DNA of 64,000 bases from the NCBI RefSeq assembly GCF_900104625.1, contig NZ_FNVZ01000005.1, forward strand, positions 496,001-560,000, read 5' to 3'. Position 1 is the first letter of the stretch; each line of letters starts with the position of its first letter. The notes beneath the pieces were generated by a model. It did no database searches. It saw only the letters and a program-made list of their open reading frames with translations, and was not told the origin of the DNA. This document shows, one piece after another, positions 46,027 to 52,298 of this stretch. The stretch is from Leptotrichia massiliensis. GTDB lineage: Bacteria; Fusobacteriota; Fusobacteriia; Fusobacteriales; Leptotrichiaceae. Made by a program: the position numbers and the translations under genes.

Positions 46027-46077
46027 AATAAGTTTATTAATTTATAGTTGTAAATAAAAAATAAGGAGTTGGTAAAT

Positions 46078-47625
46078 ATGGCATTTTTATTAGGAAATTT
46101 TATTCCGATATCGAGTGTTTTGCTAATTATTTTTGTACTTTCGCTTGTTGGATTTATTCGTGTTCCGATGGATAGGGCAGCATTTATAAGTGGATTTAAA
46201 AGAAGAGTTGTGACTGGGAAATTGGCTTTTTATTTGAGATATTTTGAAAGAGTGGATTATCTAGATCTATCGTTATTTTCTGTAGATGTTAACACTTCGG
46301 TTTTTGTTCCAACAAATGATTTTATCAATATAAAAGCTGATGCAATTGTAAAACTACAAATTTCACAAGAGCCAGAAATTTTGAATATTGCTTCTAAAAA
46401 CTTTTTAAATAAAAAAAGTGAATATATTGGTGAATCTGTAAAGGAAGTGCTGGAAGGAAATTTACGTGAAATTATAGGACAAATGAACTTGAAGGATATG
46501 GTTCAAAATAGAAAAGAATTTAATGTGAAAGTTCAAGAAAATGTATCCCCAGACTTACGGGAAATGGGTCTTGTCGTAGTTTCATTTGCTGTACAGTCGT
46601 TTATGGATGAAAAAGGGGTAATTGATAATTTAGGAATTGAAAATATTTCAAAAATTTCAAAAGACGCAAGTATCGCCAAAGCACAGGCTGAAAAGGAAAT
46701 TGCTATTGCAAAAGCTAATGCAGATAAAGAAGCAAAGGACATTGAATTAAAAGTAGCAGAAGAAATTGCTGAAAAAACAAATAAACTAGAAATAAAAAAA
46801 GCAGATTTAAAAATTGAGTCAGATACGAAAAAAGCCTCTGCAGATATGACTTATCAACTAGAAACTGAAAGAAAAAGAAAAGAACTGGAAGAAGTTCAGG
46901 GGGAAAGTAACTTTACTCGTGAAACACAGGCAATAAAAACAAATCAGGCAAAATTAGAAGCTGAAATCAAAGTAGATAATCAAATAAAATCGGATGCAGA
47001 ACTTTATAGAAAGACGAAACAGGCTGAAAGTAAACTGATTGAAGAACAAAGAGAAGCCGAAGCAATCCTTTACCAAAAGACGAAAGAAGCTGAAGCCTTG
47101 AAAATAATGGCACAACAGGAGGGAGAAGCTATGAAAATCAAAGCACAAGCTGATTCTGAAAGTATAAAATTAAAGGCTCAAGCAGAAGCAGAAAGTATTA
47201 AATTAAAAGCATTGGCAGAAGCTCAAAGTAAACGTGAAATAGGACTTGCTGAAGCTGAAGCAATAAAAGCAAAAGCTCTTGCTGAAGCCGAAGGAATAGA
47301 TAAAAAAGCTGATGCAATGAAAAAATATGGAAATGCCGCAATTATGGAAATGTACTTTAAAGCACTGCCAGAAATTTCAAAAAATGTTGCTGCTCCACTT
47401 AATAATATTGATAAAATAACGATGTATGGTGATGGAAATACTTCTAAATTAGTTGGAGATATTACAAAATCAATTGCTCAAATTAATGATGGTATTACAG
47501 ATTCAACAGGAATTGATTTAAAATCTGTATTGGCTGGAATGCTGGGAGGAAAAATAATTTCTGATAAAGAAAAACTAGATTCTGAAACTAAGGATAATAT
47601 TAATTCTGAAAAAAATAAGAAATAA
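46078..47625 (+). CDS. Flotillin-like SPFH-domain membrane scaffold protein
   Basis: This 515-residue protein has an N-terminal membrane segment (VLLIIFVLSLVGFI) and an SPFH/band-7 domain (about 25-190; GKLAFYLRYFERVDYLDLSLFSVDVN). A long Ala/Glu/Lys-rich coiled coil (about 195-430) contains the flotillin-type repeats AEAE (KLKAQAEAESIKLKALAEA). The C-terminal part has GNAAIMEMYFKALPEI, as in flotillins. It should assemble membrane microdomain scaffolds. ATG 46078 has AAGGAG 9 bp upstream and is better than TTG 46069. The usual NfeD partner gene is absent next to it. Confidence 0.92.
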   Translation: MAFLLGNFIPISSVLLIIFVLSLVGFIRVPMDRAAFISGFKRRVVTGKLAFYLRYFERVDYLDLSLFSVDVNTSVFVPTNDFINIKADAIVKLQISQEPEILNIASKNFLNKKSEYIGESVKEVLEGNLREIIGQMNLKDMVQNRKEFNVKVQENVSPDLREMGLVVVSFAVQSFMDEKGVIDNLGIENISKISKDASIAKAQAEKEIAIAKANADKEAKDIELKVAEEIAEKTNKLEIKKADLKIESDTKKASADMTYQLETERKRKELEEVQGESNFTRETQAIKTNQAKLEAEIKVDNQIKSDAELYRKTKQAESKLIEEQREAEAILYQKTKEAEALKIMAQQEGEAMKIKAQADSESIKLKAQAEAESIKLKALAEAQSKREIGLAEAEAIKAKALAEAEGIDKKADAMKKYGNAAIMEMYFKALPEISKNVAAPLNNIDKITMYGDGNTSKLVGDITKSIAQINDGITDSTGIDLKSVLAGMLGGKIISDKEKLDSETKDNINSEKNKK

Positions 47626-47702: not shown

Positions 47703-48121
47703 TAAAATTTATTTCTAAAAGATTTTTTAAGATATTGAGAATTGAAAAGTTTTAATGAATTTTAAACTATTTATATGGTAATACTTTTAAAGCTCTATAT
47801 TGTTTTGAAATATGAATAACAAAGAATTCAAATGGCATTTTTTGGTCTCTACAAAAAAAATTAATGAAATTTAATAATGAATATGGTATAATTAAAACAA
47901 TTAATTTTATAGATACTTGATTTTTAAATAAAAATTAAGAGTTTTAAGAGAAATGTTATTTTAAAAATAATGAAAAATGAATAAAAAAGGGAGAAGTTTA
48001 ATTTTTTTACTCAGAAAAATATTAAAGTTTAGATAGAATAGTTACAATTTTTAATTATTGCTAATTTTTTATATCAAAATTAAGAATGAAATAAAGATAA
48101 TATCTAAATTTAGGAGAAGGG
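47703..48121 (+). promoter_or_regulatory. Promoter and long leader of the Hsp70-like operon
   Basis: TGGTATAAT (47884-47892) is an extended -10 with only a weak -35 (ATGAAA near 47864). The implied leader is about 220 bases, AT-rich and without a CIRCE element (no TTAGCACTC). A 19-codon ORF at 47977 lacks a ribosome binding site. No other feature is visible in this gap. Confidence 0.5.
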
Positions 48122-48730
48122 ATGAAAATTATGAAAAAAGAGGAGATGGAAGAAAAGGGAAATATTAATTGGAAAGTTGAACACAGTGATAATAATAGAA
48201 TTGATGAAATATTAGAAAATATTGAAAATATTAATACTAAGCTAGATGGAATGAATGAATTATTTTTGAAAAAAATTCAGAGTACGAGTTTTGAAAAAGA
48301 AATTGCGGATAAACTTCACAAAGAAATTCAAGAATATAGGAATGATTTACATTTTCAGCTTATAAAGCCTCTTATATTTGATTTGATAAACATGAAGGAA
48401 AGTATGAAAAGAGGTTTGGGAAATTTTAAGGAAAAAACGGATGAGGAAAAGTTAAAATTACTTCAAAGTTATATTGAAGAAATCGAAATGATTCTTGATA
48501 ACAATGATATAGAAATTTATGATACAAATAATGAGGAAAATTTAGATTTTGATGGGAAAAAGCAAAAAATAATAAAAAAAATCGACACTTCAGATAAACA
48601 ACTACATGGTAAAATTTATAATATTTTGAGTAGTGGTTATATGTACAAAGGAAAAGTAATTTTTCCTGAAAAAGTAGAAGTTTATATTCATCAAAAAGAC
48701 GAAGAAAATGATAAAATGAAGGGAGAATAA
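48122..48730 (+). CDS. GrpE-like nucleotide exchange factor of the second Hsp70 system
   Basis: This 202-residue protein has an N-terminal coiled coil (RIDEILENIENINTKLDGMNELF) and a helical middle (EIQEYRNDLHFQLIKPLIFDLINMKESM). Its C-terminus (KQLHGKIYNILSSGYMYKGKVIFPEKVEVYI) has the pattern of the GrpE beta-wing, where GYxxxxxVxxPxxVxV is conserved. Overall similarity to canonical GrpE is low, so it is a divergent relative. AGGAG lies 5 bp before ATG 48122. Its stop is followed 2 bp later by the Hsp70 start, so the two are translationally coupled, which supports the partnership. Confidence 0.78.
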   Translation: MKIMKKEEMEEKGNINWKVEHSDNNRIDEILENIENINTKLDGMNELFLKKIQSTSFEKEIADKLHKEIQEYRNDLHFQLIKPLIFDLINMKESMKRGLGNFKEKTDEEKLKLLQSYIEEIEMILDNNDIEIYDTNNEENLDFDGKKQKIIKKIDTSDKQLHGKIYNILSSGYMYKGKVIFPEKVEVYIHQKDEENDKMKGE

Positions 48731-48732
48731 AA

Positions 48733-50385
48733 ATGTCAAAATATGTGTTTGGAATTGATTTGGGAACAACGTATTCATGTATAGCACGGGTAGATGATAC
48801 GGCAAGAGCGGAAGTGATAAAAAATAATGATGGAGACAATATAACACCTTCTGTGGTTGCGTTTGAAGGAGATAATGTTATTGTTGGAGCTGATGCAAAA
48901 GCTGAAGCAGTATTAAATCCCGAAACAACAGTTATGCTCGTAAAAACGTTGATGGGAAAAACTGATTTTGCAATTAACTATAATGGGGAAGATAAGACGC
49001 CTGAGGAAATTTCAGCATTTATCTTGAGAAAATTAACACAAGATGCGTCAGAACAGCTAGGAGTGGAAGTTAAAGATGTTGTAATAACTTGTCCAGCTTA
49101 TTTTGGTACAGCAGAACGTACAGCCACAAAAAATGCGGGTAAAATTGCAGGGCTAAATGTGTTGGAAATCATAAGTGAGCCAACAGCAGCAGCACTATAT
49201 TATGGATGTGCAAAGGAACAGGATGAAAAAACAATTTTAATCTATGATCTTGGCGGTGGAACATTTGATGTAACCATTATGAGAATAAGTGCTGATAAAA
49301 TTGAAGTTATTTGTTCAGATGGAGACCATGATTTAGGTGGGAAAAACTGGGATGAGGTATTAATTGGATATTTAGCTAATCAGTTTGTCGAAAAAATAGG
49401 TTATGATATTGAATTTGACGAATATGCAAAACAAGATTTACGATTGAAGGCAGAAAAAATAAAAAAACAATTAACTTCGAGAAGTCAAGCTGGAGATATG
49501 TTGGAAGTTATGGGAAATAGAGAAAAAGTGACAATAACTAGAGATGAATTTGATGAAATAACATCTACTCTATTAAATGAAACATTGAAGAAAACTAAAG
49601 AAGCTATTGAAGTTGCAAAAAATAAAGGATATGATGTAATTGATGAGATTCTGTTGGTTGGTGGTTCTACGAGAATGCCGCAAGTTAAGAAAGCACTTGC
49701 CAAAAATTTCAGTGAAATTGAAATTAAAATTCTTGAACCAGATGAAGCTGTAGCAAAAGGGGCAGCAATTCATGCTGTAAATGTTTATGTAAACAATCAA
49801 AAAAGTCTTACAGCGAAGGACTTTGAATCAAATGAAGAAGTGAAAGTTACAGTTAATGGCGATGAAAAAGAGCTGAAAGCACAAGATTATAAGGAAAATT
49901 TAACATTTTCTCCTGAAATGATGAGTATTGGTGGAAATACGAGAGAAATTGTTATAGCAACAACAAAAAGTTTTGCTGTAAAAGTAGAAAATAAAGAAGG
50001 AATTAAAAGTTGTTTTAATATGATAATAAAAAACGAAGCAATGCCTAGTGGATTTTTGGAAGTATCAGGTAATTTTAGTACACTTTATGATAATCAAGCT
50101 ACAGTTGACATTGAAATATATGAAAATGATTACATGGATAAATATTTTGAAGTGGATGAGGATTTGAAAATAGGAGATGCAGTGTTAGAATTACCTAAAA
50201 ATACACCTGCTGGCTCGCCAGTTGAAATTACTCTTAAATTAAATAAAGAAGGGATTTTAGAAGTAAAAGGATTAGATAAAACTGGAAATAAGCAAGTTAA
50301 TGTAAAATTTGAAACAAAAGGTGTAATGACAAAGGAAGAGTTAGAAAGATTGACACAAAAATCACAGGGAATAGCCGTATTATAG
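48733..50385 (+). CDS. Non-canonical Hsp70 (DnaK-like) lacking the helical lid
   Basis: This 550-residue protein has a complete Hsp70 ATPase domain: FGIDLGTTYSCIARVDD, VITCPAYFGTAERTATKNAG, ISEPTAAALYYG, LIYDLGGGTFDVTIMRI and EILLVGGSTRMPQVKKAL. The region from about 365 to 530 is a divergent beta-type substrate domain. The interdomain linker lacks the DVLLLD pattern (it reads MSIGGNTREIVIATTKSF), and the protein stops soon after the beta part, so the C-terminal helical lid of DnaK (about 638 residues) is missing. It is therefore not the housekeeping dnaK. It is flanked by a GrpE-like gene and a membrane J-like gene. Confidence 0.93.
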   Translation: MSKYVFGIDLGTTYSCIARVDDTARAEVIKNNDGDNITPSVVAFEGDNVIVGADAKAEAVLNPETTVMLVKTLMGKTDFAINYNGEDKTPEEISAFILRKLTQDASEQLGVEVKDVVITCPAYFGTAERTATKNAGKIAGLNVLEIISEPTAAALYYGCAKEQDEKTILIYDLGGGTFDVTIMRISADKIEVICSDGDHDLGGKNWDEVLIGYLANQFVEKIGYDIEFDEYAKQDLRLKAEKIKKQLTSRSQAGDMLEVMGNREKVTITRDEFDEITSTLLNETLKKTKEAIEVAKNKGYDVIDEILLVGGSTRMPQVKKALAKNFSEIEIKILEPDEAVAKGAAIHAVNVYVNNQKSLTAKDFESNEEVKVTVNGDEKELKAQDYKENLTFSPEMMSIGGNTREIVIATTKSFAVKVENKEGIKSCFNMIIKNEAMPSGFLEVSGNFSTLYDNQATVDIEIYENDYMDKYFEVDEDLKIGDAVLELPKNTPAGSPVEITLKLNKEGILEVKGLDKTGNKQVNVKFETKGVMTKEELERLTQKSQGIAVL

Positions 50386-50531
50386 TAAATTCTTAATAAT
50401 GATTAACATATTTGAGTTTAAAATTGAACTGATAAATACTAAATAATTTAGTAGTATGAAATAACAAAATTATAGTTTTATAATTGCAAATTCAAAATAA
50501 TTTTCTATGGAAGGAGGAAGAAGTTTAAAAA

Positions 50532-52298
50532 ATGGCAGAAGAGAACAAAAAAATAGCCAAAATACGCAATAATTGGTATGAAATACTTGAATTAGAATAT
50601 TATCCAGTTCCTGAAGAAAATGAAAAAAAGATAGAAGCTAGAATTGAAGAGAAAAAGCGGCATTGGTTGGCAAAAGAAAGCGATCCATTTGATGGAAAAA
50701 AATATAAAAAATATAATAATTTGGCCAAAAGTGGCATTATACAGAAAGAAATGCTAGATGAAACTAAAAGAAAAGAACTTATCGAAGACGCACAACAAAA
50801 GCTATTTGAACCAATAGACGACTTTTTAAAATATCTTGGTGGAGTTACAGTTACTGAAAAAATAGTAACAGAGATTGCTAATAAAACTCGAAGGAAGGAA
50901 AATCTTGTACGAGAACGGATAGAAAAAAGCGGATTAAAAATAGAACAAAAAGAATACGATGTGAAAGTATACCAAAAATTTTTGAAATATGTTCATATAA
51001 AATTTGATGAGTTTTATGAATTTTCAGCATTTGAGAAGTATCTAGAAATATTAAGCAAGGATAATTTATATGATTTTTTGGTTTCAGAAGGACTGAATAT
51101 AAAAAATTTAATACAACAGCAAATTGATGACAATCGAAAAAAATTGATTAAGTTTGACAATGAAACTTCTGCCAAAAAAAAGCTATATAGTGCTTGTGAA
51201 TTAATGTTAAATGATAAAAATAAAATAAAAAAATATGATGATTATTTGCAGCATTTAAAGTATTTGAAAGTGTACAAGGAATTAGAGAAAATAGAGCAGG
51301 TTCATAATTTAACAAAAAATAAAATTCCTGCTAACGAATGTATTCATAAAATTGATAAAATATTAAAAAATAAGAATGAAGCACAAAACATTGTAATTGG
51401 ATTTTGTAAAGAAAATAAAATACCATATATAACTTCAAATATTTCAAATAAAACAAATGAAAATATTGAAAGTAATAAATCTAAACGAGAAATAAGACAA
51501 AGCAGATATGCCGAAAAATCAGAAAATTTGTGTATTGAAGCTCTAAGAGCTATAAAAAAATCTAAGTTTGCAGAAGCACAAAAATATTTGAATGATGCGA
51601 AATTATACTGGGCTGAAAATTCATCAATCACTGTATTGCAAGAAAAATTAGATGAAGTTAAACGAGAAAAACTACAAGCGAATAAAAGTAGTAATACTGT
51701 AAATCAAATAAATAAAAGTATCAGAATTAGTCATAAAAAAGAGGTTAAAACATATACACGTAATAATAATAAAAATGGTATAAATATTATTTTTTCAATA
51801 ATATTAATAGTATTTTGTTTAACAATTTATTGGATAACAACATCATTGGGATCTTCTGAAATACAAGGAAATCAAGAGGATACAGAATTAGACAATGAAA
51901 ATATAATTTCAACTGTGGGAGAACAAAAAATAATACCTTTAGAGCCAAATGCTATTTTTTCTGTTACAACAAATAATCTTTATTACAGTGGAAAAACAGA
52001 TACATATTTAGAACAAACAGCAATGGTAGGAAATAGTAACATAGGAAACTATACTTCATTAGTTATAGAAAAATTTTCTAAAAACAGATACGATATGTTG
52101 CTCGAAAATGGAGTAAAAAACAGAGTGTTTAAATTTAAATGTGGAGTAAAGTTAAAAGCTAAAGGAACAACATTATTTGTTGAGAATGCTGAAGATGTTG
52201 TAAGCTTTAAAAATAAAAACATTGCGGAAGAAAATGCACACATTAAAGAAAACAAAGGATGTTTTACTGATTTTATAAAAGTCAAAGAGAATAATTAA
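50532..52298 (+). CDS. Membrane protein with degenerate J-domain-like N-terminus
   Basis: This 588-residue protein opens with NWYEILELEYYPVPEENEKKIEARIEEKKRHW, which resembles helices I and II of a J-domain (YEILG...). The HPD motif is absent where it should follow. A long Lys/Glu-rich helical region (about 80-400) comes next. One membrane segment (IIFSIILIVFCLTIYWITTSLG, about 417-438) separates it from a C-terminal domain of about 140 residues on the far side. It could tether the Hsp70 to the inner membrane and sense an outside signal. The 146-bp gap upstream holds a hairpin (ATACTAAA/TTTAGTAGTAT) without a T-tract. Family unknown to me. Confidence 0.7.
   Translation: MAEENKKIAKIRNNWYEILELEYYPVPEENEKKIEARIEEKKRHWLAKESDPFDGKKYKKYNNLAKSGIIQKEMLDETKRKELIEDAQQKLFEPIDDFLKYLGGVTVTEKIVTEIANKTRRKENLVRERIEKSGLKIEQKEYDVKVYQKFLKYVHIKFDEFYEFSAFEKYLEILSKDNLYDFLVSEGLNIKNLIQQQIDDNRKKLIKFDNETSAKKKLYSACELMLNDKNKIKKYDDYLQHLKYLKVYKELEKIEQVHNLTKNKIPANECIHKIDKILKNKNEAQNIVIGFCKENKIPYITSNISNKTNENIESNKSKREIRQSRYAEKSENLCIEALRAIKKSKFAEAQKYLNDAKLYWAENSSITVLQEKLDEVKREKLQANKSSNTVNQINKSIRISHKKEVKTYTRNNNKNGINIIFSIILIVFCLTIYWITTSLGSSEIQGNQEDTELDNENIISTVGEQKIIPLEPNAIFSVTTNNLYYSGKTDTYLEQTAMVGNSNIGNYTSLVIEKFSKNRYDMLLENGVKNRVFKFKCGVKLKAKGTTLFVENAEDVVSFKNKNIAEENAHIKENKGCFTDFIKVKENN

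Follow-up and report, generated by a model that had tools for sequence, protein, structure and literature searches.

A lidless Hsp70 with a charge-reversed J-contact surface, an HPD-less J-like membrane protein and a linked HsdS/HsdM-like pair in Leptotrichia

The second theme of the GAP1-N2 GTPase systems combines HSP70 and GrpE with an FNIII-DnaJ protein (Kaur et al. 2020, PMC7159879), and repression by HspR is aided by DnaK, a chaperone of the same operon (PMC6032397). Here we describe a locus of Leptotrichia massiliensis that resembles both. In the window analysed (64,000 nucleotides, contig NZ_FNVZ01000005.1, positions 496,001 to 560,000 of the forward strand), three consecutive genes encode a divergent GrpE-like protein (GrpE2), an Hsp70 without a helical lid and an HPD-less J-like membrane protein, followed by an HsdS-like/HsdM-like pair. 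The HSP70, GrpE and FNIII-DnaJ composition is already known from the GAP1-N2 systems; new are charge reversals at the Hsp70-J contact, the linked pair and a ~40-bp candidate promoter-operator. The original prediction, which knew of no described system of this composition, thus stands in that the Leptotrichia loci are without a local GTPase, GAP1, vWA or FNIII, and falls in that the GAP1-N2 theme had been described and the Hsp70 belongs to the same clade. We propose, with slightly less than an even chance of being right, that the locus encodes a private, self-regulated, membrane-anchored Hsp70 switch drawn from the GAP1-N2 chaperone theme and equipped with an HspR-like DNA-reading arm.

The chaperone set and its relatives

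The three genes lie where the original prediction had placed them, with the lengths given in Table 1 and a spacing of 2 bp between grpE2 and the Hsp70 gene. The predicted extent (48122-52298) was too short, however: the module also includes the upstream candidate operator and the two downstream genes, which had been overlooked. The chaperone set of these oral bacteria is kept in 9-10 of 13 Leptotrichia genomes (grpE2 orthologues in nine) and was not found in any other Fusobacteriota searched. Gene order is conserved within the genus, an outcome that favours the original prediction, and three genomes (G005, G006 and G008) hold two paralogous module copies each, both diverged copies carrying Hsp70, J-like, HsdS-like and HsdM-like genes. 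Since gene 3 is conserved across Leptotrichia, it is no single-strain oddity. The reading as a dedicated set distinct from the housekeeping one is supported: canonical dnaK, grpE and dnaJ are encoded separately in L. massiliensis, as is an HscC-like Hsp70.

Table 1. Features of the module, in positions of the window
Feature	Position	Strand	Basis
Candidate promoter-operator AAAAAAAATTAATGAAATTTAATAATGAATATGGTATAAT	47853..47892	+	Conserved in 10/10 loci with HsdS/HsdM-like genes
grpE2, divergent GrpE-like nucleotide exchange factor, 202 aa	48122..48730	+	Pfam PF01025 (GrpE), 38.6 bits; curated cutoff 25.8
Lidless Hsp70, 550 aa	48733..50385	+	Hsp70 profile match, alignments, residue checks, tree of nucleotide-binding domains
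J-like membrane protein, 588 aa	50532..52298	+	
J-like N-terminal domain, residues 11-111	50562..50864	+	AF2 pLDDT 89.4; PDB fold matches
Single predicted transmembrane helix, residues 417-438	51780..51845	+	Variable ectodomain after it (alignment)
Single-TRD HsdS-like protein, 195 aa	52411..52998	+	Pfam Methylase_S, PADLOC Specificity_I
HsdM-like protein, 376 aa	52988..54118	+	Profile comparison with EcoR124II M subunit

GrpE2, predicted to be a divergent GrpE-like protein, indeed matches the Pfam profile above its cutoff and over nearly its full length; a PDB search by sequence gave no relative. The second gene product matches the Hsp70 profile with E=1e-113. Its nucleotide-binding domain (NBD) is complete, the equivalents of the catalytic and proline-switch residues K70, P143, R151, E171 and T199 all being kept, and is followed in the alignment by a ~50-residue insert before the linker, the beta-type substrate-binding domain (SBD-beta) and ~20 residues that stand in place of the ~130-residue DnaK lid. 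The lid is missing in the same way from 10/10 Leptotrichia homologues, so the protein ends after SBD-beta, as had been read from the sequence.

The J-like protein consists of a J-like N-terminal domain, a helical region, the predicted transmembrane helix, which agrees with the supposed membrane anchoring, and a divergent C-terminal ectodomain. It has no Pfam DnaJ match, and the HPD motif, already noted as missing from this protein, is absent from all 18 homologues compared; setting it against true J-domains by sequence and by profile gave almost no signal. Because the full-length AlphaFold2 (AF2) model lacked sufficient certainty and matched no J-domain, the N-terminal domain (residues 11-111) was modelled alone from 18 homologues, which yielded a confident helical fold (pLDDT 89, pTM 0.74). 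When this model was compared with 350,542 PDB chains, the five top matches were all J-domains (CbpA, Tid1, DNAJB9 and a DnaJ fusion), a favourable yet weak outcome at E 1.2-3.5, and the two best viral matches were J-domain proteins as well. On these models a J-like fold of the N-terminus is likely, not proven. In one Leptotrichia genome, G013 (L064:4295-11459, L064:17268-18893, L065:2446-10332), at least seven J-like paralogues are arrayed around two lidless Hsp70 genes; they differ in their C-terminal parts, several are without the J-like N-terminus, and the array looks like diversification.

When 84,980 species genomes were searched for the J-like protein, one locus came up beyond Leptotrichia, in Ruminococcus flavefaciens. 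It encodes DO-GTPase2, GrpE, a lidless Hsp70, an Hsp70-vWA protein, YidD, a J-like protein with fn3, further GTPases and GAP1-N2/GAP1-M, and corresponds to the GAP1-N2 HSP70 theme of Kaur et al. 2020 (PMC7159879). Three further Oscillospirales matches of the J-like profile were dismissed as chance; the plasmids searched contained no J-like match, and the phages searched gave nothing beyond a weak Hsp70 SBD match, seen in two uncultured records that are nearly identical. A divergent complete system lies beside recombinase genes in the Leptotrichia genome G009 (L068:4345-11141, L089:141-7177) and comprises a GTPase, GrpE-like protein, Hsp70, Hsp70-vWA, J-like protein, second GTPase and GAP1-M; further examples were present in 2 of 391 Clostridia genomes sampled. 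In the NBD tree, the Hsp70s of R. flavefaciens and of Leptotrichia fall into a single clade (100/99), and the Hsp70s of GAP1-N2-type systems are set apart from DnaK and HscC (98/98). Given this shared clade, Leptotrichia most likely retained the chaperone trio of a GAP1-N2-type system, the other components having been lost or replaced. Two side observations concern these relatives: the R. flavefaciens cluster includes the gene of the membrane insertion factor YidD (L072:7505-7978), and in the Hsp70-vWA fusions (L072:5101-7203, L068:8886-11141, L113:7093-9177) vWA replaces most of the region after SBD-beta and R167 is likewise absent (A, Q and K there).

This ancestry bears on the main rival to a regulatory switch, namely a reduced anti-invader system of GAP1-N2 type in which the Hsp70 switch holds the inactive HsdS/HsdM-like pair as a decoy or dominant-negative effector. 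The membership of the Hsp70 clade, the occurrence of complete relatives both in R. flavefaciens and on the recombinase-bearing Leptotrichia element, and the published themes, in which effectors include inactive copies of cellular enzymes serving as decoys (PMC7159879), all speak for it. However, tblastn found no GTPase, GAP1 or vWA near the Leptotrichia module and the gene list no FNIII, and Pfam GAP1-N2 and DO-GTPase2 had no match in the 13 Leptotrichia genomes, although these profiles miss the divergent G009 element too. Together with the conservation of the HsdS-like protein described below, this makes the decoy reading rather unlikely.

The same tree separates the module from HscC. In favour of a specialised Hsp70 system of the HscC/DjlB-DjlC type are the similar Hsp70 length (550 vs 556 aa), the membrane-anchored J partners and the adjacency of the genes in E. 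coli. Yet the module Hsp70 stands apart from both HscC sequences in the tree, HscC retains R167 and its J partners HP[DE], and HscC is lidded and described as GrpE-independent. L. massiliensis moreover carries a separate HscC-like system, and we consider membership highly improbable and rejected it. The HscC-like Hsp70 (604 aa; C5:153500-158130, L069:9483-14328) is preceded by two HPE J-domain proteins; its locus, the third Hsp70 system of the genome, directly follows a type I restriction-modification cluster.

Charge reversals at the Hsp70-J contact

In the DnaK-DnaJ complex, D35 of the HPD motif contacts DnaK R167 (PMC8215388). That such a contact can be rewired is known from the suppression of DnaJ D35N by DnaK R167H (PMC5519331; PMC7289447). 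Among 85 positions of equal charge in E. coli DnaK and L. massiliensis DnaK, five (167, 206, 230, 253 and 477) carry the opposite charge in every one of the ten Leptotrichia Hsp70s. They include three of the five J-domain contact residues tested (R167E, E206R and D477K), which were taken from a review (PMC8215388) consulted before the test; the Fisher p=0.001 is a guide only, because the alignment had been seen beforehand and the ten sequences are related. As controls, the HscC proteins of E. coli and L. massiliensis showed 12 and 11 reversals, none of them at J-contact sites. In the wider clade, R167 is lost in 17/17 Hsp70s (K in one system) and residue 206 is never acidic. Those 17 include the Hsp70s of the Ruminococcus system, of the Leptotrichia-element system and of two more systems from Clostridia; the J-like partners in these systems are also without HPD.

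On the J side, helix II was aligned by hand, with I34, I38 and W45 equated to I21, Y25 and Y32 of DnaJ. In this register the J-like protein has E39/E40 where DnaJ has K26/R27; the equivalents are acidic in the Leptotrichia and R. flavefaciens J-like proteins apart from a single A, and D35, given this hydrophobic-based alignment, is replaced by K, R, N or H. As far as sequence can tell, the reversed charges on both proteins and the loss of HPD suggest a rewired private interface, and partners with swapped charges probably no longer fit the housekeeping set. HPD is held indispensable for J-domain action and R167 for the Hsp70 response, and here a natural lineage has abandoned both sides of the contact. 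With the neighbouring charges reversed, it opens the Hsp70-J code to tests by swapping and could yield an orthogonal chaperone pair.

The HsdS/HsdM-like pair and the candidate operator

The two downstream genes accompany 10 of 13 Leptotrichia module loci, 3' of the Hsp70 and J-like genes. The HsdS-like protein, which has a single target recognition domain (TRD), matches Pfam Methylase_S (E=3.6e-9) and PADLOC Specificity_I (1.8e-15); a PDB search by sequence gave no relative. HsdS TRDs typically vary fast. Here, the mean column identity is 89%, and with identities of 97/91/86/77% the protein is nearly as conserved as the Hsp70 (97/88/84/68%). The last third of the HsdM-like protein (residues 240-371) is homologous to the C-terminal portion of HsdM, with E=1e-7 in the profile comparison with the M subunit of EcoR124II. 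A motif scan of nine HsdM-like sequences found neither the S-adenosylmethionine motif DP.CG nor NPP[FY], both of which are present in the own HsdM of L. massiliensis. Full members of the HsdM-like family occur in the phylum only in nine Leptotrichia genomes, all with the chaperone module.

The candidate operator, ~40 bp long, has an extended -10 (TGNTATAAT) at its end and is located 230 bp upstream of the grpE2 ATG. Across loci it lies 83-230 bp before the start codon of the first gene, grpE2 or Hsp70 alike. It is present in 10/10 loci with the pair and in 0/3 without a local pair, which is not an independent sample because the loci are related. Mean pairwise identity of the element (seven loci) is 88% vs 36% in ungapped flanks, and conservation of the -35 and the spacer greatly exceeds that of the flanks. 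In the 1.66 Mb of the L. massiliensis genome that were scanned (about 65%), the operator occurs once (58 bits, next site 18.5), and a regulon search there found no second site; when the window and its two closest relatives are left out of the model, the window site still scores 52.6 bits. A sigma-70 scan by itself was uninformative (52 sites vs 42 expected), and an Rfam scan of the module region gave no match. The gene immediately preceding the module, in the same orientation, encodes a Flotillin/SPFH protein (46069-47625); it is not adjacent to the module in other loci.

These data also bear on whether the pair belongs to the unit at all. It might consist of unrelated, decayed restriction neighbours, the operator being an ordinary inherited promoter or read by a distant regulator and the trio being the unit. 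Three loci do hold the chaperones without the pair, the pair is located elsewhere in G016 and G013, and the motif includes a generic extended -10 promoter. Against this stand the presence of the pair in ten loci, and with both copies in three genomes, the conservation of the HsdS-like protein near that of the Hsp70, the constraint on -35 and spacer, and the agreement of operator with pair in 13/13 loci; we regard this reading as rather unlikely. The strong conservation of the HsdS-like protein, which is not variable, and an operator that tracks it likewise speak against the decoy effector.

The proposed switch and known systems

In the switch that we favour, the J-like protein would tether the Hsp70 to the inner side of the membrane and trigger it through the reversed-electrostatics interface, which would prevent cross-talk with DnaK/DnaJ, and GrpE2, where present, would reset it. 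The lidless Hsp70 may bind folded or complexed partners transiently instead of trapping peptides. A likeness to repressors has been pointed out for half-HsdS proteins, which form dimers on DNA (PMC6158711), and the half-HsdS with the catalytically dead HsdM-like subunit could form a DNA-binding arm that reads the single operator. If assembly or DNA binding of this arm were the client step of the Hsp70, this would close a feedback loop like that of HspR-DnaK and couple it to a membrane signal through the variable J-like ectodomain. If the half-HsdS does read the operator, a restriction methyltransferase has become a chaperone-controlled regulator. The full chain, in which a charge-inverted, HPD-less Hsp70-J pair at the membrane controls a dead type I methyltransferase turned single-operator transcription factor, is doubtful as a whole.

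Several points weigh against the switch. The J-domain fold matches are singly non-significant (TM-score to target up to 0.60), and homology to J-domains in sequence is weak, with an hhalign probability of 3.9% and Pfam silent. The Fisher test was not fully blind, and under the hand-set helix II register an SDP/TDP three residues further on, in one sub-clade, may be a displaced HPD remnant. GrpE2 is not obligatory, because three loci lack grpE2, one of them in a genome without any GrpE2. The HsdS-like protein is linked to the operator by co-occurrence in related loci alone; the pair that sits away from the module in G013 and G016 is without the operator, and the G016 HsdS is truncated. In one genome, the HsdM-like gene is broken by stops (L059:8167-9300), which together with the absence of GrpE2 suggests decay of the module there.

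Compared with known systems, the module shares a specialised Hsp70 and membrane J partners with E. coli HscC and DjlB/DjlC, which differ in belonging to another Hsp70 branch, in keeping the lid, R167 and HPE, and in having no GrpE partner. Pam16/Tim16-type proteins have an HPD-less J-like fold at the membrane, as the J-like protein of the module probably does. Pam16 acts beside an HPD-bearing partner, whereas the Leptotrichia module has no HPD-bearing J protein and its Hsp70 has lost R167. With type I methyltransferases of half-HsdS and HsdM it has in common the TRD, the HsdM C-terminal homology and the adjacency of the two genes; it differs by an HsdM-like protein without catalytic motifs, a single, strongly conserved TRD and the absence of HsdR from the locus. 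Like dnaK-grpE-dnaJ-hspR operons, it is a chaperone operon that apparently encodes a DNA-binding protein near its own operator, but the protein is an HsdS/HsdM-like pair and not the MerR-like HspR, and the loop is one that we infer. The closest likeness is to the HSP70 theme of the GAP1-N2 systems, with the same Hsp70 clade, a GrpE-like factor and an HPD-less J-like protein, that of R. flavefaciens being 27% identical to the Leptotrichia one over residues 6-377. From this theme the Leptotrichia loci differ in having no GTPase, GAP1, vWA or FNIII, in anchoring the J-like protein by a single membrane span, and in the addition of the HsdS/HsdM-like pair and the candidate operator.

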